From: Candidatus Bathyarchaeota archaeon
GTDB lineage: Archaea > Thermoproteota > Bathyarchaeia > Bathyarchaeales > Bathyarchaeaceae
Assembly: GCA_029882515.1 (NCBI GenBank)
Contig: JAOUKN010000003.1
Location: 1-46,382 of the forward strand
DNA: 46,382 nucleotides
Direction of reading: 5' to 3'
In this document: one piece after another, positions 12,301 through 27,815 of the stretch
Numbering within the stretch: position 1 is the stretch's first letter
How the letters are laid out: every line of letters starts with the position of its first letter
The notes under the pieces: model-generated
Database searches by the model: none
What the model was told of the DNA's origin: nothing
Seen by the model: the letters and a program-made list of their open reading frames with translations, nothing else
Made by a program: the position numbers and the translations under genes

Positions 12301-14772
12301 AGTGGCGTTGGTACCATCACCAAAATCCCAGAAATAACCAACAATCGAACCATCAGGGTCATGACTATTAGTAGCGTTAAAGGTGATGGTTTCATTGGTG
12401 TAAACAGTCTGAGTCGATTCGGTAAAAGCAGCTATAGGTGGACGGTTTAACACGGTCTTGAACGCTATCGTGCTATCAGTAGCGCCGTCATCATCTGTCA
12501 CAGTAAGAGTTACTACATAATTGCCATTATTAATGTACGAGTGATCAACAGTAACTCCAGTGCCATTGCTTCCATCACCAAAGTCCCAGAAATAACTGAT
12601 AATGCTACCGTCAGGATCGTAACTCGTGGTAGCGTTGAAGTATATAGTCTCACTGGTATAGACGGTTTCCGTTGATTCTGTAAATGAGGCAATGGGGGGT
12701 CTGTTCAGAACGGTCTTACCGGCACTGGTCAAGTTAGTTGCCCCATCGTCATCATTGACTGTGAGGGTTACTGTGTAATTTCCCTCCTGAGGGTAAGAGT
12801 GCTCGGTTGTCACGCCAGTGGTGTTGGTGCCGTCACCGAAATCCCAGAAATAACTAATAATCACACCATCTGGGTCGTAACTTGCAGAGGCGTTGAAGTA
12901 GATGATCTCCTCGGTATAGATAGTTTCCACAGATTCGGTGAAAAACGCTACAGGAGGCCGATTCAACACGGTCTTGGTGGAGGTTGCGGTGTCAGTTGCG
13001 TCGTCGTCATCCGTTACGGTCAAAGCCACCGTATAAGTTCCGTCGTCAACATAAGCATGATCAACCACAACGCCAATAGCATTGATGCCGTCACCAAAAT
13101 CCCAGAGATAGCTATTAATAGTGCCATCGGGGTCATAGCTGTCTGACGCGTCAAAGTAAATGATTTCACCAGTGAGCGCGGTTGTTGCAGACTCGGTGAA
13201 TATGGCTGCTGGTGGCCTATTTAGAACAGATTTGGTGGCTGACGCCAAGTCAGTTGCTTCATCATCATCCGTAATGGTTAGGGTTATCGTGTAGTTTCCA
13301 TCATCAGCATATGAGTGGCCTACAGCTATACTTGTGGCGTTTGTTCCGTCACCAAAGTCCCAATAGTAGCTCACTATTGAACCGTCAAGATCATAGCTGT
13401 CACTTGCGTTGAACGTGATAGGCTCACTTGTATAGACGGTTTCTGCCGATTCAGTGAATGTTGCAATCGGAGGTCTATTAAGCACTGTGATGCCCTTAGA
13501 AGTGATGTCGGATAGTCCGTCGTTATCGGTCACAGTGATTGTAACTGTGTATGTTCCGTCATCAGTGTAGATGTGGGTCGTGATCTCGCCTGTAGCGTTG
13601 GTTCCGTCGCCGAAGTCCCAGAAATAAGTGACGATTGACCCGTCAGGGTCATAGCTGCTCGAAGCATTGAAAGTTACGGTTTCGCTAACATAAGGGTATT
13701 CCGGGGTGCAGGAGAAATTGGCTACCGGTGGTACTCCCCACGTACGTAGAAGCGTGCAATCTATTTCCCATGAATCTTGATAGGTATCCGCTGTTTCGGT
13801 TCCCCCTTTGAATCTTATGGTAAACGTGGAACTAATCAGATAGTCAGTAATTGAAATGTTGTTCCATCCACTTGATAGGTCATTGAACAGGCTTTGCCAC
13901 GTGAAACCGTCCCAAACATCGATTCGAAGATTTTCCGATCCCATAGCTCCTCCGAATATGCAAAGTTGCTCGTTGGTCAGATCGTGCGTTGCATTGGTCC
14001 ATTGAACCTCCAGATCGAGATCATAGTTAGTCATGAAATATGTTACCACAATCTTGACATAATCGCAATAAATTGTGCCTTTGTTAGTCTCATCTTGGAC
14101 AACGAAGTAAAGGTACCCGTTCGCGTTAATGTAATCGGTAATTCCAGTCGTGATGGTTGCCGTAAAGTTTTCGTCTTGTCCTCCTGCGGCGACGGTAGAG
14201 TTTTTGATATCCCAAGCAGAACCTGTAAAGTTCCATAGACGTAGATAAACAGTTGCTCCTGCACCAAGGGGAGACCCTTCGAATAAAAGGTCTAGCTGAG
14301 TAATACTGTTCTCACTGATGGTGAATTTGAAGTTGAAGTATGGTCTTCTGCCTGGAGAGCAAGGGCCAGAGGAATCCCTTACGTCATTGGAGGACTCTAT
14401 CAAGGTGTAGTCTGCTACTTCTGTCTGTCCCGTTATGTCTGGTCCATCAGCGGGTGGAGAACTTGCTTGGCCTTTGTAAGCCCACTTGGTTAAGCCTGCG
14501 CCAGCACTATAATCGTAGGTTGTTTCATCAATACCACCAGTATTTTCTTCGTTTAGAGCGTCATAAATTGAGTCTGGACCGTATTGTTGGTCTGTGAAGT
14601 TTGAGTGTGTGCCCCTGTCGGGGCTAGTGTCCACATCACTTGTGTTGTTATCGACATAATCATACTCGTCTGAAGGATTGGCATAAACAGGGAAAAGTCC
14701 AGCTGCTACGCTAACTGAAACGAGTAATCCTAGCAGAAGAAGGAGAAAGAGCCCTCTTCTTCTCCTACGCAA
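319..14772 (-). CDS. Giant secreted PKD-repeat protein with C-terminal dockerin (4817 aa)
   Basis: A TTG start follows a GGGAG ribosome site. Residues 1-31 form a signal peptide (five arginines, then a leucine core). Residues about 32-344 are non-repetitive and beta-rich, possibly two jelly-roll-like modules. About 51 tandem PKD domains follow. The first 41 are near-uniform units of about 86 residues with the cores SYDPDG, YFWDFGDGTNATG and TVTDDDGAT. The last 10 are more divergent (TYSP-type). The C-terminus (about 4755-4817) is a dockerin-like pair of calcium loops beginning DVNGDGKVRIDD and DVNGDGKVRVDD. There is no C-terminal membrane span, so attachment to the cell probably goes through the dockerin binding a cohesin; two cohesin genes lie a few kilobases upstream. 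PKD domains are Ig-like folds common in archaeal surface proteins. A role as an extended glycosylated stalk or adhesin is inference. The frame is unbroken over 14.4 kb, so it appears functional. Confidence 0.93.
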   Translation of the reverse strand: MRRRRRGLFLLLLLGLLVSVSVAAGLFPVYANPSDEYDYVDNNTSDVDTSPDRGTHSNFTDQQYGPDSIYDALNEENTGGIDETTYDYSAGAGLTKWAYKGQASSPPADGPDITGQTEVADYTLIESSNDVRDSSGPCSPGRRPYFNFKFTISENSITQLDLLFEGSPLGAGATVYLRLWNFTGSAWDIKNSTVAAGGQDENFTATITTGITDYINANGYLYFVVQDETNKGTIYCDYVKIVVTYFMTNYDLDLEVQWTNATHDLTNEQLCIFGGAMGSENLRIDVWDGFTWQSLFNDLSSGWNNISITDYLISSTFTIRFKGGTETADTYQDSWEIDCTLLRTWGVPPVANFSCTPEYPYVSETVTFNASSSYDPDGSIVTYFWDFGDGTNATGEITTHIYTDDGTYTVTITVTDNDGLSDITSKGITVLNRPPIATFTESAETVYTSEPITFNASDSYDLDGSIVSYYWDFGDGTNATSIAVGHSYADDGNYTITLTITDDDEATDLASATKSVLNRPPAAIFTESATTALTGEIIYFDASDSYDPDGTINSYLWDFGDGINAIGVVVDHAYVDDGTYTVALTVTDDDDATDTATSTKTVLNRPPVAFFTESVETIYTEEIIYFNASASYDPDGVIISYFWDFGDGTNTTGVTTEHSYPQEGNYTVTLTVNDDDGATNLTSAGKTVLNRPPIASFTESTETVYTSETIYFNATTSYDPDGSIISYFWDFGDGSNGTGVTVDHSYINNGNYVVTLTVTDDDGATDSTIAFKTVLNRPPIAAFTESTQTVYTNETITFNATNSHDPDGSIVGYFWDFGDGTNATGVTTDHSFADDGNYTVALTVTDDDGATNIVFSTKTVLNRPPVASFTESAETVYTGETIYFDASGSSDPDGSIVSYFWDFGDSTNAIGVVVDHAYVDDGNYTVTLTITDDDGATETATATKTVLNRSPVASFTESAETIYTSETITFNASASYDSDGSIVSYFWDFGDGANATGIIVEHSYPEDGNYTVTLVVTDDDGATDAATSTKTVLNRPPVASFTESAETIYVDEVISFNASVSYDLDGSIAGYFWDFGDGTNATGIIVNHTYLDDGIHIVTLTITDNDGATGLATATKTVLNKPPVAIFTESAETVYVGEPITFNATNSYDPDGMIVSYFWDFGDGANATGITVNHAFATNGTFTVTLTITDDDGATDSASSTKTILMNESPVASFTESVETVYTNEPITFNASSSYDPDGIIVSYEWDFGDGTNATGIVVERTYVDDGIYTITLTVTDDKAATDTATSVKTVLNRSPVASFTESAETVYTDEVVSFNASASYDLDGTIVSYFWNFDDETNATGVTVNHAYADNGYYTVTLTVTDDDGATDTATAAKTVLNRSPVASFTESAETIYTNEAVTFNASASYDSDGSIVSYFWDFGDGANATGIIVDHAYADDGIYAVTLTVTDDDGATDAATSTKTVLNRPPVASFTESAETVYTSEAITFNASDSYDPDGMILSYFWDLGDGANATDVTVNHAYADDGNYTVTLTVTDDDGATALVSATKMILNRHPVALFTESAETVLTQEIITFNASSSYDPDGLIVSYFWDFGDGANATGAIVEYSYVDDGDYSVTLTITDNDGATDTASATKFVLNRSPLASFTESAETINTGETVHFNASQSYDPDGMIVSYFWNFGDGSNATGIVVDLAYADDGNYTVTLTVTDDDGTTDTTTSTKTVLNRPPVASFTESAETVYTGETIHFDASSSLDLDGSVVSYFWDFGDGTNATEVTVDHAYVDDGIYTVTLTVTDDDGATNSDTAIKTVLNRPPLATFTESAEVVYINETIYLNASDSYDLDGTIVSYWWDFGDGTNATGVTTEHSYSQEGNYTVILTVTDDDGATNSTSANKTVLNRPPIAVFTESAETVYTGDTISFNASESYDLDGIIISYFWDFGDGTNNTSIVTDHAYADDGNYTVTLIITDNDGALASTSSIKTILNRPPLAFFTESAETVYTSVTITFDASTSYDPDGTVVSYFWDFGDGTNATGITVGHSYADDGNYMVTLTVTDNDGAIDTATAIKTILNRSPVAIFTESASVVYTGEVIYFDALQSHDPDGVIVGYFWDFGDGTNATGVTVEHAYTDDGNYVVTLTVTDDDGAAGTATSTKKVLNRPPVAFFTESAETVYTSVTITFNASDGYDPDGAIVSYFWDFGDSTNATGIIVNHAYSEDGTYTVTLTVTDDDDATASAGATKTVLNRPPVAIFTESAETVLVDEVIYFNASVSHDPDGSIVSYFWDFGDGTNATDVTTEHAYADNGVYTVTLTITDNDGATTSATATKNVEVTPPVAIFTESAVTVYTGEFIYFNASASYDSDGVLVSYFWDFGDGTNATGVTAEYAYTDNGNYTVILTVTDDDGVTNSATTTKTVLNRAPSASFSESAETVYTDEVITFNASASYDPDGSIATYFWDFGDGTNTTGIVTNHSFANNGNCTITLTVTDDDGATGVATATKTVLNRPPVASFTESTETVFTGEVISFNASASYDPDGIITSRFWDFGDNTNATGTIVDHTYSEDGNYTVTLTVTDDDGASSSSIATKTVLNNSPVASFTETAETVYSAEIIAFNASASYDPDGTVVSYFWDFGDGINTTGVIVDHAYADDGDYTVTLTVTDDDGASSSTSVIKTVLNRSPIASFTESTETMLVGEVIYFNASESYDPDGVVVSYFWDFGDGTNATGMTTEHGYADDGVYTATLTVTDDDGATASTSATKTVGITPPVATFTESAETVLTGETIMFNASASYDFDGVIVSYFWDFGDGTNATSVIVVHSYVDDGVYNVTLTVTDDDGATASAVSTKTVLNRSPVPSFTESATTLSTDEVISFDASASYDSDGTIVSYFWDFGDGSNATGVIVGHAYVSDGVYTATLTVTDDDGATASTSATKMVLNRSPVASFAESAETVYTNEIISFDASASYDPDGAIVSYFWDFGDGTNATGVIVDHAFADDGIYTATLTVADDDNATATDTSTKTVLNRSPVASFTESAETVYTSDVITLNASNSYDLDGTIVSYFWDFGDGTNATGVVVDRSYADDGVYTVTLTILDDDGASVSASATKTVLNRSPVALFTESVTTVFTGEVIYFNASASYDSDGIIVSYFWDFGDGTNATGVIVDHAYVDDGTYTVILTVTDDDGVTTSTSATKTVLNRSPVASFTESAETVYTNEIISFNASASYDSDGTIVSYFWDFGDGTNSTGMIVEYSYVDDGTYSVTLTVTDDDGATGIITSTKTVLNRPPVALFTETAETVLTDEIITFNASASYDPDDYIISYLWDFGDSTNSTGAIVDHAYVDDGVYTVTLTVTDDDGATASATATKIVSNRSPVASFTESAENVLTGEVIYFNASGSYDPDGYVVSYFWDFGDGINAMGVTTEHSYAEKGNYIVTLTVTDDDGATASAIATKIVGNSSPVAIFTESAAAAYTGMVISFDASSSYDPDGVIVDYFWDFGDGTNAAGLSVGHAYADDGNYTVTLTVTDDADATATATSIKTILNRSPVSIFSESATVVYTGVVIHFDASTSYDSDGVILSYFWDFGDDTNATDIIVEHAYIDDGNYFVTLTLIDDDGATGMASSTKTVLNRSPVASFTESAETVYTEEVIHFDASASYDPDGYLATYFWDFGDGTNASNVILDHAFIDEGTYIVTLTVTDNDGATTSVSATKIVLSTSPVALFTESAEIVYTDEVIYFNASASYDPNGVIVSYFWDFGDSTNATGVTVNHSYADDGIYTVILTVTDNEGETSSATSTKTILNRFPVASFTESAETVYTGESITFNASGSYDPDGVIVSCFWDFNDGTNATGVLAEHAYVNDGNYTVALTVTDDDGSVVAAVATKTILNRSPSASFIYSPSYPIVGEIVAFNASASYDLDGYVVDYAWNFGDNTTTTVATPIVSHTYAIEGDYTVTLTITDDDSATNNSTDVVMVRNYPTAAFTYSPDPPAKNQSIIFNASSSVPNGGIITSYQWDFGDGNITAVSGPILTHVYSSEGNYTVVLNVTDSEGLSDSLSQTIRVGLSPVSSFTYSPATLYVGDTATFNASASYDPDGSIISYLWDFGDGSLPVNETDPITIHVYVSDGVYSVALTVTDNEGINATNSTMITVLRAPVASFTYSPGFVLVGDVVTFDASESYDPNGYIMNYTWDFGDGNITATTSPITTHTYATAKTYVVILTVTDNEGFTDEKTKFVRIREYPTASFMCIPDYPIAGEDVTFDASSSTPNGGSIDNYHWDFGDGSLPVDTPDPILTYLYTTVGDYVVTLTVSDSEDLSDTTSTTVSVRDYPTATFQYSPTPPTAGLPVNFDGSSSTPGQGGSITDYAWDFGDGNITTTTTSMVVHVYAKAGNYTAVLTVTDSEGLSDLNVELITVEQASPVAAFVYSPDPAVKGGIVTFNASKSHDPDGQIWVYHWRFGDGETDLGWDSIVTHVYTALGQYNVTLTVEDLDENTDAISKIVTVIAGPHVDFTWEPQYPEINEVIAFDASESYDPTGSIVNYTWDFGDGNSTTVFESIITHQYGAPANYTVALNVTNDQGLWNIRQKLVSVIVTGPYVDFSWTPSDPYVNETVLFDASNSIGTVAEIANYTWHFGDGETITVVDPVVYYAYASEGNYTVALNVTDTRGFWSTASKIISILPLSGPTADFTWPYPCYPNRTITFDASTSTSGWNGTDHPPIVSYMWDFGDGNITTISVFAINHTYVQPGNYIVALTVTDELDQSDTVSYVVAVSEKLLGDVNGDGKVRIDDILAVALAFGSEPGDPNWDPDCDVNGDGKVRVDDILIAAQNFGQELP
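10367..10575 (-). repeat. Near-identical repeat patch, copy 1 (partner at 11660-11868)
   Basis: Two exact blocks, 69 bp (10367-10435) and 98 bp (10478-10575), recur at the same offset of 1293 bp at 11660-11728 and 11771-11868. The offset equals five PKD units plus one codon. The rest of the array is much more diverged at synonymous sites, so this suggests recent gene conversion or unequal exchange. Confidence 0.75.
11660..11868 (-). repeat. Near-identical repeat patch, copy 2 (partner at 10367-10575)
   Basis: This is the partner of the patch five PKD units away. The similarity continues past 11868 into the next linker (about 11880-11945) with only scattered differences. Confidence 0.75.
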
Positions 14773-15837: not shown

Positions 15838-16824
15838 CTAGCCGCTATAATTGCCAAAGGCTTGCGCCACAATCAGAACATCATCTACGCGGACTTTGCC
15901 GTCACCATTTATGTCAACACTAGGATCCCAGCCTTCGTCACCCTCGTTCATGCCGAAAGCCAAAGCCACAGCCAACACGTCATCTACCCGCACCTTACCG
16001 TCATCGTTCACATCACCGATTAGAATGACTTCAAACGTTGTGCTATTGGTTATGAACAGCATTTGATATTGTGAAACTGCTGAGATGCTGTAGTTGCCCG
16101 TGATCCCTCCTTCAGGGTTCGTACGAAATGTCAGATTGAATTCTCCTGGTGTACTTGTGCCGAAAGATTCTTCGGAGGTATAGGTTTCTCCTCCCCCTCC
16201 ACCAACAATGTTAAATCCAACTGACGCTTCAGGGCAGTAGGCGAATCCGTTTTCGTTCGGCCATCCATACAACGCACTGGTGTATATAAACGCGGGGCCG
16301 AGAGATATGTATTCAGAGATTGGTATAGGCCAGATGAAACGACGTTCCTCTTGTTCTGGTCCTAGCTCTGTTTGGAATAGTTTCTGCGCTATGAAGGGTA
16401 AACCGGTTGAGTCATAAAGATTCAACGTGACCGTCACATTCTCTGAGGTGAGCCCGTTGTTTTTCACGGTTATGTTTATTCCTAGACCTTCGCCTAGTGT
16501 GAAGCTCGATTTGGCGTTTCCAAATCGGTCACATGTGACCAATTCTGGGATCTCAACAACCCATGGACCCACAGGATTGTCCCCTGTCGGCAGGGTCCTT
16601 AATACGAACAGGTTCTCATTTGGATCGTCTATTTGGATTGCTACAAAGCCATCAGTTACAGGTGAACCATCCAGCATTAGGCTTCCATGGACCGAAACGC
16701 TTTCTCCAAGACCGTTTTCCTGGTCAACACTCAAAATGAGTTTCAAGCTCACGGCTTGTACAACTTGGACTGTTACGAGGATGACGAGGATAGTAAGGAA
16801 GGTGAACCACTGTTTCCGAGACAT
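15838..16824 (-). CDS. Secreted beta-sandwich protein with C-terminal dockerin (328 aa)
   Basis: ATG start. Residues 1-26 are a signal peptide. Residues about 27-110 resemble an Ig-like domain (VDQENGLGESVSVHGSLMLD, the style of extracellular 'polysaccharide-deacetylase-linked' or MG-like modules). Residues about 110-170 resemble CARDB (INITVKNNGLTSENVTVTLN). About residues 268-328 are a dockerin-like pair with calcium loops DVNDDGKVRVDD and DINGDGKVRVDD, each followed by an AxAFG-type helix end. A short glycine run (NIVGGGGGETY) separates the middle modules. It lies 97 bp downstream of the cohesin-dockerin gene. It is probably an exported partner docked to a cohesin. I recognise no enzyme motif. 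Confidence 0.85.
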   Translation of the reverse strand: MSRKQWFTFLTILVILVTVQVVQAVSLKLILSVDQENGLGESVSVHGSLMLDGSPVTDGFVAIQIDDPNENLFVLRTLPTGDNPVGPWVVEIPELVTCDRFGNAKSSFTLGEGLGINITVKNNGLTSENVTVTLNLYDSTGLPFIAQKLFQTELGPEQEERRFIWPIPISEYISLGPAFIYTSALYGWPNENGFAYCPEASVGFNIVGGGGGETYTSEESFGTSTPGEFNLTFRTNPEGGITGNYSISAVSQYQMLFITNSTTFEVILIGDVNDDGKVRVDDVLAVALAFGMNEGDEGWDPSVDINGDGKVRVDDVLIVAQAFGNYSG

Positions 16825-16921: not shown

Positions 16922-17956
16922 TTACGGTGCCCATTCTTTTCCAAACTCCTTAGCGACAGCCAAAACATCGTTTACGCGCACCTTGCCATCCTTGTCTAGG
17001 TCTGTATATGGGTTCCAGTCCGGGTCACCTTCATTGGAGCCGAAGGCTAAGGCCACAACTAGAACATCATCTACGCGGACTTTTCGGTCACCATTTATGT
17101 CTCCGATGATCGTGGCGAAGATTTTGATGTTTCTTGTTGAGTGTTGATAGGTGAACTGTATGAAATCGTGTGTTGCATTCTTAGAGAGGCTATAGGGAGT
17201 CGGAGTGGTGTCTACGAGAACCATTATTGTACTGACGTTTCCGTTGAGGAACGATGTTGGTGTTGCCACAGTTGTCGACCCAACAGTTCCTGTGGTTCCT
17301 GTTGCGTCAAACATAATTTTTTTCGATCCTTGGTCGTAGTTGAACGTTGTGATCGTTGAGTTGCTGAAGATTAGAACATGATAGGTTTCTTGGTTGATTA
17401 TCACCGTAAACAAGTTTTCTTCAAAGCCTTGGTCTGTGACGATTACAATGCCATCCATTCCTTCGAATGGAATGAATTCATAATCTGGCTCCTGAAGATA
17501 GGTGTCGCAGAGTTCGCTGGGACATTCGGGTTCTACTATTTCTAAGCTGCTGATGCCTGGGTCTATGCTGTTGAATTCTACTTGAACTAAATTGCCTGAG
17601 CCATTTACGCCATAGGTTCCATCTAATACACAGAAAACCAGCACGTATCCTTCTGCATTGTCAATTTCAGGTGGAAATAGAATGAAGTAGCTTCCGAAGA
17701 TATTTTCGTCAGGAACTGTAATGTCAGTACAGTTGATTATTGAGGGGTTGAAACCAAGTCGAAGTTGCCATGTATTGAGGTTGGTCACATTGGATACGGT
17801 AACGTTGATTGTGACTGTTTGCCCTATCTGGACATAGCTCTTGTTAGGATTCACGATGATTGCCGTTCCTGCGAGCGGAGAAGCAAAGCGGAAGCTGAGA
17901 AATATTATCGTGGAAGTGACAAGTAATCCTAATAAGATTGTTGCTTTGCGATTCAT
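16922..17956 (-). CDS. Secreted cohesin-plus-dockerin protein (344 aa)
   Basis: ATG start with a purine-rich GAGG upstream. Residues 1-30 are a signal peptide. Residues about 31-180 match a cohesin-like fold: IIVNPNKSYVQIGQTVTINV, NVTNLNTWQLRLGFNPS, then GVNGSGNLVQVEF and a terminal DGIVIV strand, the usual cohesin progression. Residues about 185-275 are another beta module. Residues about 283-344 are a dockerin with loops DINGDRKVRVDD and DLDKDGKVRVND. A protein with both halves of the interaction can act as an adaptor or self-assemble into chains. The cohesin assignment rests on motif pattern only and needs a structure or profile check. Confidence 0.83.
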   Translation of the reverse strand: MNRKATILLGLLVTSTIIFLSFRFASPLAGTAIIVNPNKSYVQIGQTVTINVTVSNVTNLNTWQLRLGFNPSIINCTDITVPDENIFGSYFILFPPEIDNAEGYVLVFCVLDGTYGVNGSGNLVQVEFNSIDPGISSLEIVEPECPSELCDTYLQEPDYEFIPFEGMDGIVIVTDQGFEENLFTVIINQETYHVLIFSNSTITTFNYDQGSKKIMFDATGTTGTVGSTTVATPTSFLNGNVSTIMVLVDTTPTPYSLSKNATHDFIQFTYQHSTRNIKIFATIIGDINGDRKVRVDDVLVVALAFGSNEGDPDWNPYTDLDKDGKVRVNDVLAVAKEFGKEWAP

Positions 17957-18120: not shown

Positions 18121-20436
18121 CTAGTATGGCAGTACGTAGATTGTGGTTGTGTCTTCCGGTCCTGCAGCAGTCCATCCGTCCACATACCAGAAGAGTGGAA
18201 CTGCATGGATTGTTGCTGTGCCAACGAAGACAAACTTGTCAATGTGTAGACTTAGTTCCACCAGGTACTCTTCCGCCGTGCAGAATTCTGCTCCGGTGAC
18301 ATTGAGCATTACTACTCCAAATGCAACTGGCACGTTGAGTTCGTCATGGATGGTTACGCGCATTGCGACGAGATATTGTTGTTGTGCATGGCTGGTGAAG
18401 GTAATACTGATGTCTACCCATTCACAGTGTTCGTAGTAGTACTTGTCAGTTGTAACTTCGACGATGTTTACTAGCCAGTCGTAGTGGAATTCAAGCTCAT
18501 CGTAGATTGATTCGCAGGCGACGTCGACTTCTGCTACAACTCTCCATACTCCGAGTAGGCTTTCAGGATCATCGCAGGGCCACGGTAGTCTGAATGAGAC
18601 GCATGCCACGCCGTCTTCGTCTGTGACGGCTTGCAGCGTTGTCCACATGTTGTCTTGATTATCCCAGACTGTGAAGGTTACTAGTTTTTGCTGTACTGGC
18701 CAGCAGTTGAAGGTTACGTTTGCGCAGAGGATGACCTCTTTTTGTGGCCAGAACATGTCGCTGGGCTGCATTAATCCTTGGCCTCCGTATGGAGCTGGAT
18801 ATTGGGTGTATACGTCGATGATTCGACCCACTTCAAATGAGCCTAGTATTGTATAGGTACCGTCTACGGGGTCTCGATAGCCTATGGGTTCACTCTTCTT
18901 GTCAATCATTAGTATGTCGTACAGGATGAAGTCGCATTCGAAGTCTTCTGGATCGCAACTGACGTCTTGCGCTGTCACTTCAAAGGTGATGATGGCGATT
19001 GTTCCATTTTCTACCGGATCTCCGCCAGCCACAGGATCTGGATAGTATCCTGTTCCGTTTGGCAGGATCAAGTCCATGAGCACGATGTAGTCGCCTTCGT
19101 CAAACGCCTGGAAGATTGTAGGTTGCGGTGCACCGGTTTGCTCGAATTGGGGTAGGTAGTCTCCTTCTTCGATGCTTACTACTTGCATCAAATCGGGACA
19201 ATAGGTTAACCTGAATTCAACTCCTACGAGGTACCAGTTCCAGTGTAGCTCCTTGATGTTCACAGCGATTGTAAATTCTTCGCCGACTGCAGGTGCAGGT
19301 CCCAATGTGGTATCGTTGGGCACCACTTCTAAGTATGGTGGTACGATTGATAGGTACGCAACTACCTGAACCATACCGTCTACAGGTTCACTGTCTATTG
19401 TATATTCATGGTCCCAGACTTCGGTTTCGTCGCAGAATGCTAGTGCAGTTTCGTTGTAGGCTCCTTGTGCCTCTGGTGGGGCGTTTCCTTGTACTAGTAT
19501 TTCGAAGGTGATGGTGGCAACGAGTACAGAGGCTCCTCCGTCTTGTGAGCCAGAGAAGCCGCGAACGGTGGCGTTAACCCAGTCTAAGGTATCATGGCTC
19601 ATGGTGATGCTGTTCGTGCCAGTCCAATCCGCCGTGTTAAGGACTGCTGCTGTAGCGTTGATGAGGGTTGAGTCATAGCTTAGGCAGAAAGTGGCGTTGG
19701 TCATGCCCCAACCGGCGTAGTAGTTGGCAATAACAACGTCAACATCGAAGGTTGTACCAACCCAGTGAGTCCATTGGTCGAAAATGTTTTCGTCGTCGTC
19801 GGTGGTGAACCAACAGGGTGCTGGTGCCGACCACGTGAAATTGTAGTTCGCGTTAATTCCTATCCATCGGTAGTAGACCTGTGCATCGTCTTGGATGTAG
19901 TTATCCTCGCTAGTCGTGATGTCAAGGAGACTGTTAAATTCTTCACCTTTTGTCGGAACCGATACCACTTCGAATTCAAGGTAGGCCACGCTGGATGGGC
20001 AATGGCTTGGACCTGGATACGGACCACTGAAGTACGACTCAGCGAATAGTACGTAGTCGCGAGTGCTATCATATGAGCCGTATGACGGGGATGTAGCGAT
20101 GTGTGTGGTTCCAGCTTTTATGAAGAGTTCGCTTGCGTCGGTGCCTTCATCAATTCCGGAGTACCAGGCGCCATTACATTGTAGGTGGTTCTTGTTGTAT
20201 AACATGTAGAACTGCCATGAAGCAACGCTTACGTTTGAGTTTACGAATACGGTGACATTGAATTTGTAGCCGATGGATGTCGTAGACGTATCGAAGCTGA
20301 TGTTGGCGGGTTCAATCCACAGGGCATTGGCCGGGTGAGTTGTGCTGGGAACATCATATGCAAGGACTGGTAGTACAGAAAGTAGAAGCATTAGAACTGC
20401 CATTGACACTATAATCTTCTTTAGGTTTCTTTTCAA
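18121..20436 (-). CDS. Scaffoldin-like secreted protein with three cohesin-like domains
   Basis: I place the start at a TTG at 20436, giving MKRNLKKIIVSMAVLMLLLS, a clean signal peptide. The frame is open to an ATG at 20460, but that codon sits about where transcription should begin from the box A at 20480-20491, and GGGAG lies 4 bases before the TTG. Numbered from 20460, three cohesin-like beta-sandwiches follow: about 45-200 (SIGYKFNVTVFVNSNVSVAS), 215-375 (VGTTFDVDVVIANYYAGWGM) and 385-545 (VGEEFTIAVNIKELHWNWYL). Each has the hydrophobic strand order of cohesins and ends with a GxV-type strand. Residues about 550-779 hold two Ig/MG-like domains. There is no dockerin and no C-terminal anchor. 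Three cohesins could hold three dockerin proteins, and four dockerin proteins are encoded nearby. The cohesin calls are by pattern and may be a divergent subfamily. Confidence 0.82.
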   Translation of the reverse strand: MKRNLKKIIVSMAVLMLLLSVLPVLAYDVPSTTHPANALWIEPANISFDTSTTSIGYKFNVTVFVNSNVSVASWQFYMLYNKNHLQCNGAWYSGIDEGTDASELFIKAGTTHIATSPSYGSYDSTRDYVLFAESYFSGPYPGPSHCPSSVAYLEFEVVSVPTKGEEFNSLLDITTSEDNYIQDDAQVYYRWIGINANYNFTWSAPAPCWFTTDDDENIFDQWTHWVGTTFDVDVVIANYYAGWGMTNATFCLSYDSTLINATAAVLNTADWTGTNSITMSHDTLDWVNATVRGFSGSQDGGASVLVATITFEILVQGNAPPEAQGAYNETALAFCDETEVWDHEYTIDSEPVDGMVQVVAYLSIVPPYLEVVPNDTTLGPAPAVGEEFTIAVNIKELHWNWYLVGVEFRLTYCPDLMQVVSIEEGDYLPQFEQTGAPQPTIFQAFDEGDYIVLMDLILPNGTGYYPDPVAGGDPVENGTIAIITFEVTAQDVSCDPEDFECDFILYDILMIDKKSEPIGYRDPVDGTYTILGSFEVGRIIDVYTQYPAPYGGQGLMQPSDMFWPQKEVILCANVTFNCWPVQQKLVTFTVWDNQDNMWTTLQAVTDEDGVACVSFRLPWPCDDPESLLGVWRVVAEVDVACESIYDELEFHYDWLVNIVEVTTDKYYYEHCEWVDISITFTSHAQQQYLVAMRVTIHDELNVPVAFGVVMLNVTGAEFCTAEEYLVELSLHIDKFVFVGTATIHAVPLFWYVDGWTAAGPEDTTTIYVLPY

Positions 20437-20479
20437 TATTCTCCCTTCTCTTTTCAACATGTATCTGATGAACTCTGCG

Positions 20480-20646: not shown

Positions 20647-23145
20647 TTATGGCCAGCCGAAGTTGAGGGCGACAGCCAGAATGTCGTCGACTCGGATTTT
20701 GAAGTCGCCGTTGACGTCGCATCGTGGATCCCATCGCAAGAAGGCGACAAGGGGATCGGAACCGAAGGCGAGGGCAGCGGCTAAGACGTCGTCCACACGA
20801 ACTTTGTCGTCGATGTTGATGTCTTCGGGGATGGTGGCGTGGATGGTGTGCGTATACGTGTCCACGAGCAGCGTACCTTGCCAAACTTCCACGGTGATCT
20901 CTACGGTTCCTGCGCAGAGGGGATAGATGGTGTAGGGGCCGAGTTTCGCCCAGTCAAACACGTTGACTTGGGTGTCGTTTTCGACATGCTTTACTACGCC
21001 GTCTTCTTTGATCACTACGTCCACAGTCTTGTTGGCGAGTTCGCCGTCGACTTTGTAGCCATAGTTCGTAACCAAGACGTTGTATTCCACGGGATCTTCA
21101 ACGCAATCTGTCTCGTTCACGAAAGCAATGTAGGGTGCATCAACAACCGCCTTGATGGGGCCGTCCACCCAGTAAACGTCGCTTGAGTGGACTTCGCCGA
21201 TTCGGGTGGCGTCATCGTAGTAGTCGTAGACGAAGGCGCCAGCACCGACGTTGGCGGTTTGTGGGGCGTTGCTGTCACGTGGCGGCAGACCGGCATCCGG
21301 CCAAGCAGCGTAGTAGTCGAGGTACTGTGGGCGCACGGATGTGTACCAGAGTTCTTTGGCTTTGGCGGTCCAGTCTTGGTAATCCCACGCATCGGGGACC
21401 ATGGCGTCAAACGCGATTTTCTGTTCGTCGGGATTAACTGAGGATTGTTCAGCCATTTCGTCGAGGATGTAGTAGATGTGCTTCGGGAAGTAGGACGCGA
21501 TTTGTGGATAGTCTTCGTACCAGAGGCTGGTCGCATTGAAGTAGGTGATGAACTCGTAGGGACCTTTGGCTTCCGTGTAAACGACAGTTTTCCACGTGCT
21601 CTCGTATCTGCCAACCTCCCATTTCTTGAGCATGTTGAAGGCGAATTGGCAGTCGTCGGCCGTGAACTGGAAGGTTTTGCCGCCTGCACCGGTGTCCTGC
21701 CAGTAGACATCGTTTCGGAGGTAGTAGGTGACTTTCATGCCGTCCGGTATGTTCAACGCTGCCGATACGTCAGCGTTAACCGTGCTGTTGACGGCTTCAA
21801 TTTTGGATTTGTATGCTATCCAAGGTAAGTCGGTGCTGGGAACTGGTGGCGAAAACATCATTAATGGTTCGTGGAGTCCGTCTAAGAGCAACCATCCATA
21901 TAAGGTATTGTCGGTCCATGGGCTCAGTGTGTCAGGTTCGTCTCCCATGGCGCGTCGTATTAAGCCTTCGTAGGGCGGATTGTTATATACAGTGCCTGGA
22001 CCCCAGTGGACGCTTCGCCAGTTCAGGTAGCATTGGTCCGCGCCTGGACCCGGTGAGCCGATGAAGTTATCGAGGTCGGGATCCCACGTAGTAATACCTT
22101 GACCCGTGGTGACGGGGAAGAGGGGCATCCAGTCACTGACGAAGAGGCGTTGCATCTCCCAAACGGCGTCCAGCACAGTAGCTTCATCCAGATTGTACAT
22201 CATCGTCTCCAAGAGGTCATCCATTGTATCGTTGACGAAGCCACCAAAGTTCCATTGCCATGGACCGATGGTGCTTGAATGGTAATTGTCAAAACACCAG
22301 TCCGGAGTTAGTCCCAAACCAGTCAATCCGATGCCAATAAAGTCGAAGTCATGGAAATCCATTAGCTCGTAGACTAAGGTCATGAACTCTCGATCGGTCA
22401 AGATGAAGTTAGGACCGTTCGTGGCGCCTTTACTGTCAAAGAAGGCGTTCACTTGGCCAACGAATTGTTGGAGGATGTATTCCCATGAGAGGGTGCCCGT
22501 GCTGTACACGACTTCGAGGTCTCGTACGCGGCTGCCGTCAGGGTTAAGCAGATAACCCGCATCGTCGCCAGCCCCTAAGGTGTAATCGGCATCCATCAGA
22601 ATCTGCCAGGCGGTATCGTTGTCAGTGTCCGGCATGACGTCCACATTGTTGCACCAGCCGCCTTGAGCGGGCATTATCGCGGATCCTAGGGCGACGGTGA
22701 GGGAGTTCTGGTAGTACTCGTAGATGGCGTCAGCTTTGTCATCCATACCCCACACGTAGGATAGCGCCACTCTAAAGCGGCTATCGTTGAGGGGCTTACA
22801 CGTTTCTCCCGGCGTCCTTCCGGCAGGTCCACCGACCACGTGTGCACAGTATTCATCTCGGTTTTGTACTGCCATAAATCCAAAGGCAGATATAGGATCA
22901 AACGTCATGTTGTATCCCGCCGCGACACAAGCATCGATGAGTTCAGTGGTTCCCGGACCAGGCCTCATGTCAATTTCGTGGTCAACCAACAAGGCAGCGT
23001 TCATCTGTGCGGTGTCATCGTACACCTTGTACTGGATCTTTTGAATGTGCGGAAACGGATCGTTAATGTTGGTTGTCGCAGATACGCTTAAGAGCAATAT
23101 AAGAGCAAACAGCGTAGCAATTACAATAGGTTTTTTCGAAAGCAA
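20647..23145 (-). CDS. Oligopeptide ABC transporter binding protein, apparently circularly permuted, with C-terminal dockerin
   Basis: Family 5 (DppA/OppA) extracellular solute-binding protein. I place the start at a TTG at 23145 (MLSKKPIVIATLFALILL), preceded by AGGAGAAAGGAG; the frame is open to a TTG at 23178 but the box A at 23190-23202 favours the inner start. Numbered from 23178, residues 45-390 resemble the C-terminal half of the family: IQYKVYDDTAQMNAALLVD (usually mid-protein), then PLNDSRFRVALSYVWGMD. Residues 402-675 resemble the N-terminal half: YEGLIRRAMGDEPDTLSPW, MKVTYYLRNDVYW, FTADDCQFAF, and last VGAGAFVYDYY with DVYWVDGP, which normally sits just before the segment that here comes first. 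Residues about 680-782 are CARDB-like; 785-843 are a dockerin (loops DINIDDKVRVDD, DVNGDFKIRVDD). It is divergent from the permease-ATPase operon and surely feeds it. Confidence 0.9.
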   Translation of the reverse strand: MLSKKPIVIATLFALILLLSVSATTNINDPFPHIQKIQYKVYDDTAQMNAALLVDHEIDMRPGPGTTELIDACVAAGYNMTFDPISAFGFMAVQNRDEYCAHVVGGPAGRTPGETCKPLNDSRFRVALSYVWGMDDKADAIYEYYQNSLTVALGSAIMPAQGGWCNNVDVMPDTDNDTAWQILMDADYTLGAGDDAGYLLNPDGSRVRDLEVVYSTGTLSWEYILQQFVGQVNAFFDSKGATNGPNFILTDREFMTLVYELMDFHDFDFIGIGLTGLGLTPDWCFDNYHSSTIGPWQWNFGGFVNDTMDDLLETMMYNLDEATVLDAVWEMQRLFVSDWMPLFPVTTGQGITTWDPDLDNFIGSPGPGADQCYLNWRSVHWGPGTVYNNPPYEGLIRRAMGDEPDTLSPWTDNTLYGWLLLDGLHEPLMMFSPPVPSTDLPWIAYKSKIEAVNSTVNADVSAALNIPDGMKVTYYLRNDVYWQDTGAGGKTFQFTADDCQFAFNMLKKWEVGRYESTWKTVVYTEAKGPYEFITYFNATSLWYEDYPQIASYFPKHIYYILDEMAEQSSVNPDEQKIAFDAMVPDAWDYQDWTAKAKELWYTSVRPQYLDYYAAWPDAGLPPRDSNAPQTANVGAGAFVYDYYDDATRIGEVHSSDVYWVDGPIKAVVDAPYIAFVNETDCVEDPVEYNVLVTNYGYKVDGELANKTVDVVIKEDGVVKHVENDTQVNVFDWAKLGPYTIYPLCAGTVEITVEVWQGTLLVDTYTHTIHATIPEDINIDDKVRVDDVLAAALAFGSDPLVAFLRWDPRCDVNGDFKIRVDDILAVALNFGWP

Positions 23146-23189
23146 ATACTCCTTTCTCCTATTTTTTCTATACTGCAAGAATATTGAGG

Positions 23190-23313: not shown

Positions 23314-24318
23314 ATGGGATTCAGAGGTTATTTCTTAAACAGGATAGCAATAGCAGTAGCAGTCCTCTTCATCGTATTAGTATTGAACTTCTTGATTTTC
23401 CGTGTGTTCAGCCCCTATGATCCCACTGATATGATAATAGACCCAGATTTCGAGCAAGCAACGAAGGATAGGCTCAGAGCTGAATGGGGATTGGATCGCC
23501 CTCTTTTTCCCGATCAATTCGTCTTGTACCTGAAAAATCTGCTCACCTGGAACTATGGGCGGCAATTTGACCAATCAAAAAGTCTTATAGCACCGCAGAT
23601 GGCTTGGCGCCTCCGAAACACACTTTTGCTTCTTGGAACAGCAACGATAGGAGTCATACTCGTAGGAATCCCGCTCGGAATCTTGGCAGGGTCAAGAAGA
23701 GGAAGCAAAACAGACATAACGATCATAGGCGCAGGGCTCTTTACATGGGGTGTTCCAACCTTTTTCGTTCAACTGATTTGGTTGTTCGTCTTTTCTGCGA
23801 CCTGGAACTCCGTTTTTGGGGCGCCACTTATCCCTAGAAGTGGAGTCGTCGGCTTGCCTCCACCAGAAGGACTACTTGAAACATTAAAGGATGTTGCATG
23901 GCATGCAATTTCTCCCATATGTACCTTGATCATTGCAGGTTTTGGATCCTGGGCATTGTACACTAGAAACATGATGGTCGATGCGCTCACAGAAGACTAT
24001 ATTCAGACGGCTCGTGCTAAAGGAGTGAAGGGCAGAGATGTGTTGTTTCGGCATGCCTTTCGAAGCATACTTCCCCCTGTCGCCACTATGGTGGCTTTGG
24101 CGATTCCGGGAATAGTCACGGGTGCCATAATAACTGAGAGTCTGTTCGGTTGGCCAGGGATTGGAGCATGGTACATAAATGCTCTGATGAACCGCAATCA
24201 TCCAGTGGCTCAAGCAGTCCTCTACAACTATGCAGTTTTGATGATAGGGGCCAACCTTGTCACAGATCTGCTTTATGGGTTCCTAGATCCTAGAATACGT
24301 GTAGGCCAAAGAAGGTAA
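23314..24318 (+). CDS. dppB: Peptide ABC transporter permease, DppB-type (334 aa)
   Basis: This is the first of the two membrane subunits that form the peptide channel. It has an N-terminal span (about 8-30) typical of DppB, a loop with FSPYDPTDMI, then further spans. The EAA-type coupling motif for the ATPases is seen in YIQTARAKGVKGRDVLFRHA, and the C-terminus has the usual FGWPGIGAWYINALMNRN and a DPRIRVG ending. Length is normal for DppB. ATG start with GAGGAGGT. The next gene begins 16 bases after its stop. Confidence 0.93.
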   Translation: MGFRGYFLNRIAIAVAVLFIVLVLNFLIFRVFSPYDPTDMIIDPDFEQATKDRLRAEWGLDRPLFPDQFVLYLKNLLTWNYGRQFDQSKSLIAPQMAWRLRNTLLLLGTATIGVILVGIPLGILAGSRRGSKTDITIIGAGLFTWGVPTFFVQLIWLFVFSATWNSVFGAPLIPRSGVVGLPPPEGLLETLKDVAWHAISPICTLIIAGFGSWALYTRNMMVDALTEDYIQTARAKGVKGRDVLFRHAFRSILPPVATMVALAIPGIVTGAIITESLFGWPGIGAWYINALMNRNHPVAQAVLYNYAVLMIGANLVTDLLYGFLDPRIRVGQRR

Positions 24319-24333
24319 AGGAGGCTCAACAGA

Positions 24334-25854
24334 GTGGCCCTGTTTCGCAAGGAAAAAAGAACAATATACGTGAGAAAGATCAAGAATTTTTGGGAAGAGT
24401 TCAGTCACAACAGAATCGGTCTTGCCGGTATTGGTATCTTAATATTCTACGTAATGGTAGCTGTCTTCACTCCCTATATTTCTCCGATGAGACCCACAAG
24501 CCAAGAGTATAATCCTCCTCGCTCGGCTGCGATGTATGCAATGCCCGAATGGGTGCGTATCTTCCCTCAGTTTCAGGATTTACCTCCGTCTTTTGAGGTC
24601 CGATTATTAGAGAACGTGACGCTAGTGAACTCGACCGTAACTGACCGTGCAACACTCCAATTTGACAAAGAAGCGCTCAACATTACTTTCCATGCAGACG
24701 CTGAGGAAGAGGAAGGAAGCATTCTTCTTCATCTGACTGCATTTAGTTACGTCTATGCTCCTCCATCGGACTTCAAGCTCACAACGGTCTACTACGAAAC
24801 AGGTAACCAAATACGGTATGAAATAGACTTGTTCTTGACGACTGATCAACAAAATGATATATGGGACGAATGGCTGGAAGATCCAACAAGAGCTGTCTTA
24901 TATACTAATGACAGAAAAGTGACTCGCTACCCAAGTGTTGACAAAAAGATTAGAAGAAGCTTGTATGCTGGGTTAATGAATGAACAGCTGTTCGCTTGGC
25001 AATACCCGAATGACGCCGTACAATACGCATTTCTCCATCCGTCAGAGATGCTACTCTCCAAAAAAGGAAGTTACGACTTCTATCTTGAGATAAAATTCAA
25101 CTCGCTTGCGTCTACTTCAACATGTAACATACATATTGACACTGCTGAAGTCAAGTTCTTTGGTGATGTTTGGGGATTATTAGGAAGTGACAGAGTTGGT
25201 CACGACGTTTGGGCACAACTAATTTATGGAGTTAGAATCTCCTTGATCGTTGGATCTCTTGCAGCGGTTCTCTCATCAGTCCTTGGGATTTCGTTCGGAG
25301 TGATAGCAGGATATTCTGGAGGGAGAACCGATCAAATAATAATGCGAGGTGTAGACGTGCTTCTCTGCTTACCAGTACTTCCTATCTTGCTTATATTATC
25401 GTCATACTGGAGCTTCAACGTGTATTACGTTATCCTTCTTATAGCCATTTTTGGATGGCAAGGTTTATCAAGAATAGTCAGATCCAAAGTTCTCTCCCTT
25501 AAAGAAGTGCCTTTCATAGAAAGTGCAAGAGCTGCGGGCGCAACCTCAGGATACATTATGACGCGCCACATTATACCAAATGTCCTCCCAGTAGTTATGG
25601 CAGCCATGGTTCTCGCTGTACCCGGCGCTATTCTAACCGAAGCCGCGTTAAGCTTTCTAGGATTCGGGGATCCCTCCGTGCCAACTTGGGGAAGAATGCT
25701 CTACCGATCCCGAACGCAAGGAGGTTTTGAGAGTTTAGCTTGGTGGTACGTCATACCGCCTGGGCTTGCAATCACCTTCTTATGTTTGGCTTTTGTGTTC
25801 ATTGGACATGCCTTAGACGAAATCGTGAACCCGAGACTTAGGAGACGACGCTAA
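24334..25854 (+). CDS. dppC: Peptide ABC transporter permease, DppC-type, with a large extracellular insertion (506 aa)
   Basis: GTG start with AAAGGAGG overlapping the end of the previous gene. Residues about 30-50 form the first span, ending TPYISP. From about 280 the protein is a standard DppC: LLGSDRVGHDVWAQLIYGVR (family form LGTDxxGRD), the EAA-loop ESARAAGATSGYIMTRHIIP, and LTEAALSFLGFGDPSVPTWG. DppC is normally about 300 residues. Here about 210 extra residues (66-278), with alternating beta-type hydrophobicity and two NxT sequons, sit between the first span and the core, on the outer face. They may touch the dockerin-bearing binding protein, which is inference. Its stop codon is directly adjacent to the next ATG. 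Confidence 0.93.
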   Translation: MALFRKEKRTIYVRKIKNFWEEFSHNRIGLAGIGILIFYVMVAVFTPYISPMRPTSQEYNPPRSAAMYAMPEWVRIFPQFQDLPPSFEVRLLENVTLVNSTVTDRATLQFDKEALNITFHADAEEEEGSILLHLTAFSYVYAPPSDFKLTTVYYETGNQIRYEIDLFLTTDQQNDIWDEWLEDPTRAVLYTNDRKVTRYPSVDKKIRRSLYAGLMNEQLFAWQYPNDAVQYAFLHPSEMLLSKKGSYDFYLEIKFNSLASTSTCNIHIDTAEVKFFGDVWGLLGSDRVGHDVWAQLIYGVRISLIVGSLAAVLSSVLGISFGVIAGYSGGRTDQIIMRGVDVLLCLPVLPILLILSSYWSFNVYYVILLIAIFGWQGLSRIVRSKVLSLKEVPFIESARAAGATSGYIMTRHIIPNVLPVVMAAMVLAVPGAILTEAALSFLGFGDPSVPTWGRMLYRSRTQGGFESLAWWYVIPPGLAITFLCLAFVFIGHALDEIVNPRLRRRR

Positions 25855-26817
25855 ATGACGCTTCTCAAAGTTGAGAACTTGACCATGTACTGGGAAGTAT
25901 TACGAGGATACGTTAAGGCAGTAGACGACGTCAGCTTTAGCCTTGAAAAGGGACATTCTCTTGGACTCGCTGGCGAATCCGGATGCGGAAAAACAAGTAC
26001 TGCCTTGGCAATTCTAAGACTGTTGCCATATAATGGGCGGATAATGGGTGGAAACATCATCTTCAACGGAGAAGAACTGCTACAAATGAATGACCAAAGG
26101 TTTCAGAAGGAAATTCGATGGAAAAAAATGTCTGTAATTTTTCAGGGAGCCATGAATGCGTTACATCCAATTCAAAGAATTGGAGACCAGATAACTGAAG
26201 CTATTCTTCTCCATGAGAACATAAGCAAGAAGGAAGCAGTGGACAGAGCTAGTAAGCTACTCGATCTGGTTGGAATCGGAGCGGAGAGAATCGATCGATA
26301 CCCCCATGAACTCAGCGGAGGACTAAAACAACGAACTGTAATTGCCATGGCCCTAGCATGTAATCCTGACCTTATCTTCGCAGACGAACCGACAACCGCA
26401 TTAGACGTCATTGTTCAAGCCCAAGTGCTAAAAGTGATCAAGGAACTCCAGCATAAATTGAATCTCTCTATGATCATGATTTCACATGACCTCGCCATGA
26501 TCGCTGAAACCTGCGATGAGATCGCAATTATGTATGCAGGAAAAATAGTGGAATACGGAGATGTCACAACCATCTACAAAAAGCCGTTGCACCCCTACAC
26601 ACAGAAACTCATAAAAGCCTTCCCCAGTGTCATAGGACCCAAAACGGAACTCGCAACCATACATGGATTTCCACCCGACCTGCTGAAGCCTCCACCAGGA
26701 TGCAGATTCCATCCAAGATGCCCATACGCCATGGAAATTTGTAGAAAGAAAGACCCGCAATCAGCAAAAGTAGATGGCAAATATCATTCAGTAGCCTGTT
26801 ACCTAATTGGAGACTAG
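25855..26817 (+). CDS. dppD: Peptide ABC transporter ATPase, DppD-type (320 aa)
   Basis: This is a cytoplasmic ATPase that drives peptide import. Motifs in order: Walker A GESGCGKTS (about 41-49), the Q-loop in VIFQGAMNALHP, signature LSGGLKQR (a variant of LSGGMRQR), Walker B LIFADEPTTALD, and the switch histidine in MISHDLAM. The C-terminus has the family's oligo-HPY extension, with GCRFHPRCPYAMEICRKK and a late VACYL; these four cysteines match the pattern reported to bind an iron-sulfur cluster in some DppD/DppF proteins. The ATG abuts the previous TAA, so translation is probably coupled. Confidence 0.95.
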   Translation: MTLLKVENLTMYWEVLRGYVKAVDDVSFSLEKGHSLGLAGESGCGKTSTALAILRLLPYNGRIMGGNIIFNGEELLQMNDQRFQKEIRWKKMSVIFQGAMNALHPIQRIGDQITEAILLHENISKKEAVDRASKLLDLVGIGAERIDRYPHELSGGLKQRTVIAMALACNPDLIFADEPTTALDVIVQAQVLKVIKELQHKLNLSMIMISHDLAMIAETCDEIAIMYAGKIVEYGDVTTIYKKPLHPYTQKLIKAFPSVIGPKTELATIHGFPPDLLKPPPGCRFHPRCPYAMEICRKKDPQSAKVDGKYHSVACYLIGD

Positions 26818-26822
26818 AACTC

Positions 26823-27815
26823 ATGGAAGAAAGCGTTGTAGAAATTCACGATCTGAAAAAATATTTTCCTATAAAGTTAGGTTTCCTCAAGAGTTTAACA
26901 ATTAAGTTAGTTCCAGAGATCCGTGCTGTTGACGGCGTAAGCTTCAAAATAGCCCCTCGGGAAGTTTTTGGTCTCGCTGGAGAAAGTGGCTGCGGAAAAA
27001 CAACTACCGGGAGATGCATACTCAGGCTAATTGAACCCACAAACGGTAAAATCTTGTTTAAAGGGACAGATTTAACGGCTCTTGCTTCAGACAGAATGAC
27101 CAAACTCCGAAGGAAAATGCAGATTATATTTCAGGACCCCTACGAATCTTTGAACCCACGAATGAGCGTATATGACATCATAGCAGAGCCGTTAACTATC
27201 CAAGGAATCGCGACAAGTGCAGATCAAATCACAAAGCTGGTAAGTACTGCTTTGGAGGAATTGGATCTCAATCCACCAGAGGAATTCATGTACAGATTTC
27301 CCCACGAGCTCAGCGGTGGTCAAAGGCAAAGAGTGGCCATAGCAAGAGCCTTCGTACTTAAGCCCGAGTTCATTGTTGCCGACGAACCCGTATCTATGCT
27401 TGACGCTTCCATTAGATCCGAAGTTCTAAATCTCATATTAGGCCTGATAGAGGAAACCCAGTGCGCATTTCTTTACATCACGCACGACATCGCACTGACA
27501 CGGCACATTTGTAATCGCATTGCAATCATGTATCTAGGAACAATCACGGAGAAAGGACCAACTGAGAAGATGATTCAGAACCCTTTACACCCATATACTG
27601 AAGCGTTAATTGCTGCAGTACCAGTCCCTGATCCAACAGCCCGTAGAACTGAAATTGTAATTAAAGGTGAGGTTCCCAGCCCTATCAACCCACCCCCAGG
27701 ATGCAGATTTCATCCAAGATGTCCATATGCAAAACAAAAATGCCAAGAAGAAGAACCACAACTGGTAAATGCCACAAAAGACAGATATGTCGCATGTCAC
27801 TTCCCACTTGGATAG
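26823..27815 (+). CDS. dppF: Peptide ABC transporter ATPase, DppF-type (330 aa)
   Basis: Second ATPase of the operon, starting five bases after DppD. It has Walker A GESGCGKTT, the Q-loop IIFQDPYESLNPRMSV, which is diagnostic of DppF/OppF, signature LSGGQRQR, Walker B FIVADEPVSMLD, and the switch THDIA. The C-terminal extension again carries four cysteines (GCRFHPRCPYAKQKC and VACHFP). It ends the operon; the next gene converges from the other strand. Confidence 0.95.
   Translation: MEESVVEIHDLKKYFPIKLGFLKSLTIKLVPEIRAVDGVSFKIAPREVFGLAGESGCGKTTTGRCILRLIEPTNGKILFKGTDLTALASDRMTKLRRKMQIIFQDPYESLNPRMSVYDIIAEPLTIQGIATSADQITKLVSTALEELDLNPPEEFMYRFPHELSGGQRQRVAIARAFVLKPEFIVADEPVSMLDASIRSEVLNLILGLIEETQCAFLYITHDIALTRHICNRIAIMYLGTITEKGPTEKMIQNPLHPYTEALIAAVPVPDPTARRTEIVIKGEVPSPINPPPGCRFHPRCPYAKQKCQEEEPQLVNATKDRYVACHFPLG

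Follow-up and report, generated by a model that had tools for sequence, protein, structure and literature searches.

How is an archaeal solute-binding protein (SBP) built, and how might it be held at the cell surface, when its chain ends in a dockerin? The question is raised by a gene in a stretch of 46,382 nucleotides from a Candidatus Bathyarchaeota archaeon, called the window here, which is contig C95 of a source genome of 2.2 Mb in 230 contigs (88% complete). The gene, its neighbours, and the transporter operon that diverges from it are listed in Table 1.

Table 1 Features of the window and their coordinates
Feature	Coordinates	Strand	Basis
4817-aa protein, about 51 PKD stretches and a C-terminal dockerin over the Pfam cut-off	319-14772	minus	
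328-aa protein, dockerin at C-terminus	15838-16824	minus	
344-aa cohesin and dockerin protein	16922-17956	minus	
779-aa exported protein, three cohesin domains (about 19864-20328, 19372-19842, 18856-19335)	18121-20460	minus	
Family-5 SBP ORF, 843 aa, TTG start	20647-23178	minus	
SBP: dockerin, residues 785-841 and two last residues, two complete calcium loops	20650-20826	minus	
SBP: spacer, residues about 674-784, probably beta-rich	20827-21159	minus	Pfam, prediction
SBP: second segment, residues 399-673, N-terminal part of canonical SBP	21160-21984	minus	PF00496, 1dpp
SBP: first segment, residues 37-398, C-terminal part of canonical family-5 SBP	21985-23070	minus	PF00496, canonical model, 1dpp
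SBP: N-terminal hydrophobic export segment, residues 1-34, ends SVSA/TTN, predicted cleavage	23077-23178	minus	hydropathy
OppB-type permease, divergent from SBP gene	23314-24318	plus	
OppC-type permease, ~217-residue insertion after first helix (about 24526-25176)	24334-25854	plus	
OppD, OppF ATPases (25855-26817, 26823-27815)	25855-27815	plus	

Parts of the binding protein

The protein is recognized by PF00496 (SBP_bac_5) at 56.3 bits, above the cut-off of 32.4. Peptide is simply the commonest label of this family, and a peptide ligand is not supported, because SBP_bac_5 also includes nickel and sugar binders. The N-terminus reaches a hydropathy of 2.39 over 19 residues, and the end of this export segment fits the -3,-1 rule of signal peptidase. 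The spacer in front of the dockerin is beta-rich according to a modest prediction; the first-pass annotation had called it CARDB-like, which Pfam does not bear out, its best match there being TQ at 16.5 bits, under the cut-off. An AlphaFold2 model of the whole SBP, made from five sequences, has a pLDDT of 35.7, a confidence at which the bilobed fold is not readable.

The C-terminus of the SBP reads EDINIDDKVRVDDVLAAALAFGSDPLVAFLRWDPRCDVNGDFKIRVDDILAVALNFGWP, in which D1, N3, D5, and D12 are present in both loops, leaving all calcium ligands intact. A local dockerin model, built on nine further dockerin-region stretches of this genome and not on the copy of the window SBP, scores residues 785-841 at 67.8 bits, and the best of 1000 shuffles of the last 70 residues reached 12.1 bits. 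Pfam PF00404 (Dockerin_1) does not report this copy, even when it is searched alone at E up to 10; its cut-off is passed by dockerins of relatives, for example, L079 (25.5 bits) and the giant PKD protein of the window (25.6 bits), whose dockerin is 58% identical to that of the SBP over 68 residues. AlphaFold2 predicted two helices for eight related dockerins, with a pLDDT of 82.7. When this model was compared with the PDB using Foldseek, each of the first 25 matches belonged to a dockerin or cohesin-dockerin entry; the lowest E was 0.0097 (none at E <= 0.001), and 2y3n_B had TM scores of 0.72/0.81. The best of these matches come from type II complexes, and a profile of the eight dockerins finds 2y3n_B at 2.9e-10. 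On the strength of the score, the ligands, and the fold match, the C-terminus is a genuine two-loop dockerin, as the first-pass annotation had held for residues about 785-843, with putative cohesin binding, and its predicted fold matches that of cellulosomal dockerins. Dockerin sequence and predicted fold are as in the clostridial and Bacteroides type II pairs (2y3n, 2b59, 5k39), whereas the cargo is a transport receptor here and an enzyme or scaffoldin there.

Segment order and permuted relatives

The alignment of the SBP to its own family falls into two parts in an unusual order. Positions 146-312 of the PF00496 profile match residues 43-243, i.e., the first half of the protein, and positions 14-141 match the second half (window positions 21169-21747). 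In a local model of canonical Bathyarchaeia SBPs with 535 positions, positions 302-532 align to residues 110-393, and weak matches place 273-339 of 1dpp at residues 127-198 and 58-124 of 1dpp at residues 478-544. Swapping the two segments back turned the PF00496 match of 58.2 bits in two stretches into one of 73.9 bits in a single stretch, continuous over profile positions 14-312. The same reordering in the relative L090 raised the PF00496 score from 169.7 to 182.7 bits and the best match in the PDB from 84.6 to 92.2 bits, with a first stretch of 347 instead of 193 query residues. A protein with another cut point (L043, type A), reordered at its own, different cut, went from 193.1 to 205.7 bits. 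Judging by these alignments, the window SBP is a circular permutant, in which the C-terminal segment precedes the N-terminal one and the canonical order of PF00496 is not kept. Pfam and NCBIfam score permuted SBPs in pieces only, which would conceal the permutation in routine annotation. Neither the permutation nor the position of the dockerin, at the place of the C-terminal helix of relatives, was part of the first-pass annotation.

Two trivial origins of the layout were considered and rejected. An assembly artefact is contradicted by the recurrence of the layout on another contig of the same genome (C191) and in numerous independent genomes, and a tandem duplication with lost ends by the divergent oppB directly upstream, which leaves no space for the missing N-terminal part.

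When a type-B profile (the type of the window SBP) was searched against the PDB, which is the sole control for this layout, all of the best 60 of 116 matches broke at the type-B junction and none had the permuted order. DppA, OppA, and AppA, which are cluster C family-5 SBPs, resemble the window SBP in their PF00496 domain and their cognate OppBCDF genes, and differ from it in that the permuted order is absent from these 60 matches.

Three cut points were distinguished in the numbering of the canonical model: A near 369/374, B near 231-243, and C near 270-283. The window SBP and its relatives have the type-B cut, which we take to correspond to the point at which the chain of DppA crosses from lobe I into lobe III. 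A mixed sample of 105 proteins held 20 of type A, 43 of type B, four labeled B? (L199, L202, L203, and L205, type B by eye, of which the canonical model sees the first segment only), four of type C, and 34 canonical ones; its loci were hand-chosen among the matches listed and its sequences are related to one another, with three genes present twice (L122/L161, L119/L166, and L116/L163), so that the tallies are not random samples and Fisher values overstate independence. L214, which is of type B and interrupted by a stop, was assigned to type A by the sorting rule; it is counted as type B for OppC below.

A search of 250 genomes of the phylum with a type-B model yielded at least 27 matches, in at least 21 genomes, that cover at least 480 of the 525 positions in one stretch, and 14 of the 21 genomes listed with such a near-full match are outside the class of the window. 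Among 20 loci fetched from this phylum list, the canonical model found the type-B order in 14, the first segment only in four, and the canonical order in two. The type-B layout is thus spread across the archaeal phylum, and Bathyarchaeia show two further cut points. Besides the window SBP, the source genome has three strong family-5 SBPs, all of type A and with a membrane helix at the end (L043:1853-3751, L044:3426-5198, L045:4883-6619). A profile search of the contig collection gave six loci, of which one MAG contributed four and the remaining two were weak matches, and no relative of the window SBP was found in viral contigs by scanning or in plasmids by tblastn. The four type-C proteins (L145-L148), which represent the third permutation point, have no C-terminal tail and a hydrophobic N-terminus except in L147, whose called start is far upstream. 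In the SBP of L081, residues about 205-285 form an additional stretch within the first segment, and by eye this stretch resembles a cupredoxin.

Among the matches listed from the open-licence literature, no report of permuted family-5 SBPs was found. A naturally circularly permuted SBP of an ABC importer has been described in Treponema pallidum, TpMglB-2 (Tp0684), and its authors suggested that the permutation may be an adaptation to tethering (PMC4990184). TpMglB-2 is a Type I, cluster B glucose-binding protein and differs from the window SBP in fold class and cut point and in having no dockerin. The reason why an SBP should be permuted was raised for TpMglB-2 and left open (PMC4990184); canonical proteins, three permuted layouts, and two anchor types now provide a natural series in which to ask it.

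The transporter operon and the OppC insertion

The divergent permease-ATPase operon that the first-pass annotation had pointed out was confirmed as OppBCDF (23314-27815), and the same arrangement is found in L082 and L084. In OppC proteins of type-B loci, an insertion of ~200 residues (about 190-420 across the loci) follows the first helix, that of L084 having about double length. This insertion was present at 23 of the 24 type-B loci with a readable OppC, the lone exception being L210, versus none of 22 type-A, type-C, or canonical loci, in a count of hand-chosen loci that leaves out the B? loci and L132, where OppC is cut by the contig end. OppC proteins of L217, L145, L147, and L161 have N-terminal extensions instead. 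The insertion matches no Pfam family. A model of it built without the window, L082, and L084 finds all three, at 8.9e-20, 5.6e-17, and 2.9e-8, respectively; the insertion is homologous among type-B transporters. OppC and the SBP are predicted to meet through this unnamed domain.

A broader evolutionary reading can be proposed, on which we are evenly divided. The type-B systems may form an unrecognized, phylum-wide transporter lineage in which a family-5 SBP was permuted near the lobe crossover, OppC gained a matching extracellular receiver domain, and the freed C-terminus took interchangeable anchors (helix or dockerin); the SBPs of Bathyarchaeia would have undergone at least three separate permutations.

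C-terminal anchors and candidate cohesin partners

The C-terminus was readable in 40 of the 43 type-B proteins. A helix was found in 25 of them, a dockerin in 11, both in none, and neither in four, namely L130 (whose helix falls slightly short of the threshold), L137, L086, and L204. In L088 and L089 the dockerin is internal, not terminal. No dockerin was detected in the 20 type-A, four type-C, and 34 canonical proteins, and the type-A proteins as sorted all have a C-terminal helix. Since helix and dockerin never occur together in the 40 type-B SBPs, the dockerin appears to replace the membrane anchor of the type-B relatives, and the simplest reading is that the task of anchoring passed to it from the C-terminal helix. 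A maximum-likelihood tree was built from 40 type-B cores, with L042, L082, L214, and L137 omitted as truncated or odd. It requires two changes between helix and dockerin, and in it L090 and L091 (the f2 pair) are separate from the remaining nine; its supported branches alone force just one change, and the dockerin may have had a single origin among type-B SBPs.

The SBP could also be membrane-held by its N-terminal helix, if this is not cleaved, and the dockerin would then recruit cohesin-bearing surface proteins to the transporter. The hydrophobicity of its N-terminus would suit such an arrangement, as would that of canonical-layout SBPs of the same class, many of which start with a strongly hydrophobic segment and lack a C-terminal helix. 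However, those permuted relatives that end in a helix start with a similar segment and would have two anchors each, and helix and dockerin are mutually exclusive at the C-terminus, so we regard this possibility as unlikely.

Candidate partners for the dockerin are encoded close by. The three-cohesin protein is the product of the next gene, ~190 bp downstream of the SBP gene; its cohesins were also seeds of our local cohesin model, and Pfam Cohesin recognizes them independently (45.2 bits, three stretches). Measured against known scaffoldins, it has the several cohesins but not the surface anchor or dockerin, as the local model found no dockerin in it and its end, TIYVLPY, has no hydrophobic helix by eye. 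Anchors are seen on other cohesin proteins of the genome: four have an apparent membrane segment (L046:1643-2338, L046:2468-3841, L048:8898-9713, L049:1655-2509), and therefore anchoring scaffolds are available. In the whole genome, Pfam gave seven cohesin matches and, when E values up to 1 were admitted, 26 candidate dockerins (nine over the cut-off). Two Peripla_BP_6 SBPs of this genome carry dockerins as well, one on C228 (L003; 24.1 bits, over the cut-off) and one on C36 (L026), the latter dockerin being 67% identical to that of the window SBP. Contig C191 encodes a truncated paralogue of the window SBP (65% identical, tail unread), one gene away from a protein with two cohesins, CARDB, and a dockerin.

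In the window, C191, L080, L084, and L083 (an SBP tail fragment), the SBP gene has a cohesin gene no more than ~1 kb away, and in L082 the distance is about 7.8 kb. No cohesin gene was found in the fetched flanks of L079, L081, L085, L087, L088, L090, and L091, or at any of 60 control SBP loci (L129-L168 and L199-L218; mostly 3-4 kb flanks), one of which (L151, from genome G051) contains a dockerin ORF at the margin of the fetched stretch, with a cohesin just beyond it, 4-5 kb away from the SBP. Cohesins were present in 61 of the 121 genomes of the order, comprising 7/7 with a confirmed SBP-dockerin versus 54/114 others; the former count omits G053, where the matching ORF is mostly masked and cohesins are likewise present. 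Three more type-B SBPs (G015:C39:18492-20270, G015:C8:62820-64655, G007:C2:56201-57922) have cohesin matches on the same contig within about 1-15 kb.

The relatives without a nearby cohesin gene might suggest that the dockerin is a relic or a calcium-stabilized tail without a partner. The intact ligands of both loops, the cohesins in all seven SBP-dockerin genomes, and the dockerins of the two Peripla_BP_6 SBPs make this hardly credible. The first-pass annotation had itself named loops that lack calcium binding, together with a lack of cohesin partners for the same SBPs elsewhere, as the signs that would speak against its reading; with intact ligands and with cohesins in all seven genomes, this combination was not observed. 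SBP-dockerin fusions, for which it had proposed to search, turned up in 11 type-B SBPs in all, in the two Peripla_BP_6 SBPs, and in reports on ANME archaea, in which dockerin-bearing NikA/OppA-type SBPs are reported to be common and TroA SBPs with dockerins are also known (Chadwick et al. 2022, PMC9012536). As in the window, SBP and dockerin are joined there in an archaeon with cohesin proteins, and because these proteins have already been reported, the fusion is not new in kind. In contrast to the system of the window, the ANME passage mentions neither a permuted order nor an exchange of anchors nor an insertion in OppC (PMC9012536).

Placement on a cohesin scaffold, as first suggested, agrees with the candidate cohesins, including the three-cohesin gene; the purpose given for it, proximity to other exported proteins, is not supported. 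In a cellulosome-like form of that idea, the SBP would be co-assembled with dockerin-bearing enzymes and capture their products at once. The neighbours in the window do include more dockerin proteins and a CBM9-like protein, the recognition positions are nearly identical among the window dockerins, and in L089 a dockerin-bearing subtilase adjoins the SBP. However, no hydrolase was recognized among the eleven scanned window proteins (319 to 31098), so the dockerin-bearing polysaccharide hydrolases of a cellulosome were not found among them, and the other dockerins inspected sit on PKD, NosD, or beta-propeller proteins and on the two Peripla_BP_6 SBPs. We consider this arrangement decidedly improbable.

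The explanation that we favor, and hold to be probable, is that of a permuted SBP of an OppBCDF-type importer that is held at the cell surface by cohesin docking. Its chain would start where a canonical family-5 SBP crosses over from lobe I to lobe III, run to the old C-terminus, resume at the old N-terminus, and stop just before its starting point. Because the SBP is permuted, the C-terminus would emerge elsewhere than in a canonical SBP and would bear the anchor there, as a membrane helix in most relatives and as spacer plus dockerin in the window SBP. Following export, with probable signal cleavage, the SBP would dock, presumably in a calcium-dependent manner, on the adjacent three-cohesin protein or on the membrane-segment cohesins of the genome, and deliver its ligand to the divergently encoded permease, where it may contact the OppC insertion. 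These findings suggest that Bathyarchaeia, most of which have not been cultured, may keep uptake receptors on a surface network of cohesins and dockerins. Two cohesin proteins, L048:8898-9713 and L082:353-1144, have a zinc-ribbon/HTH-like N-terminus, and in that of L048 the membrane segment lies before the cohesin.
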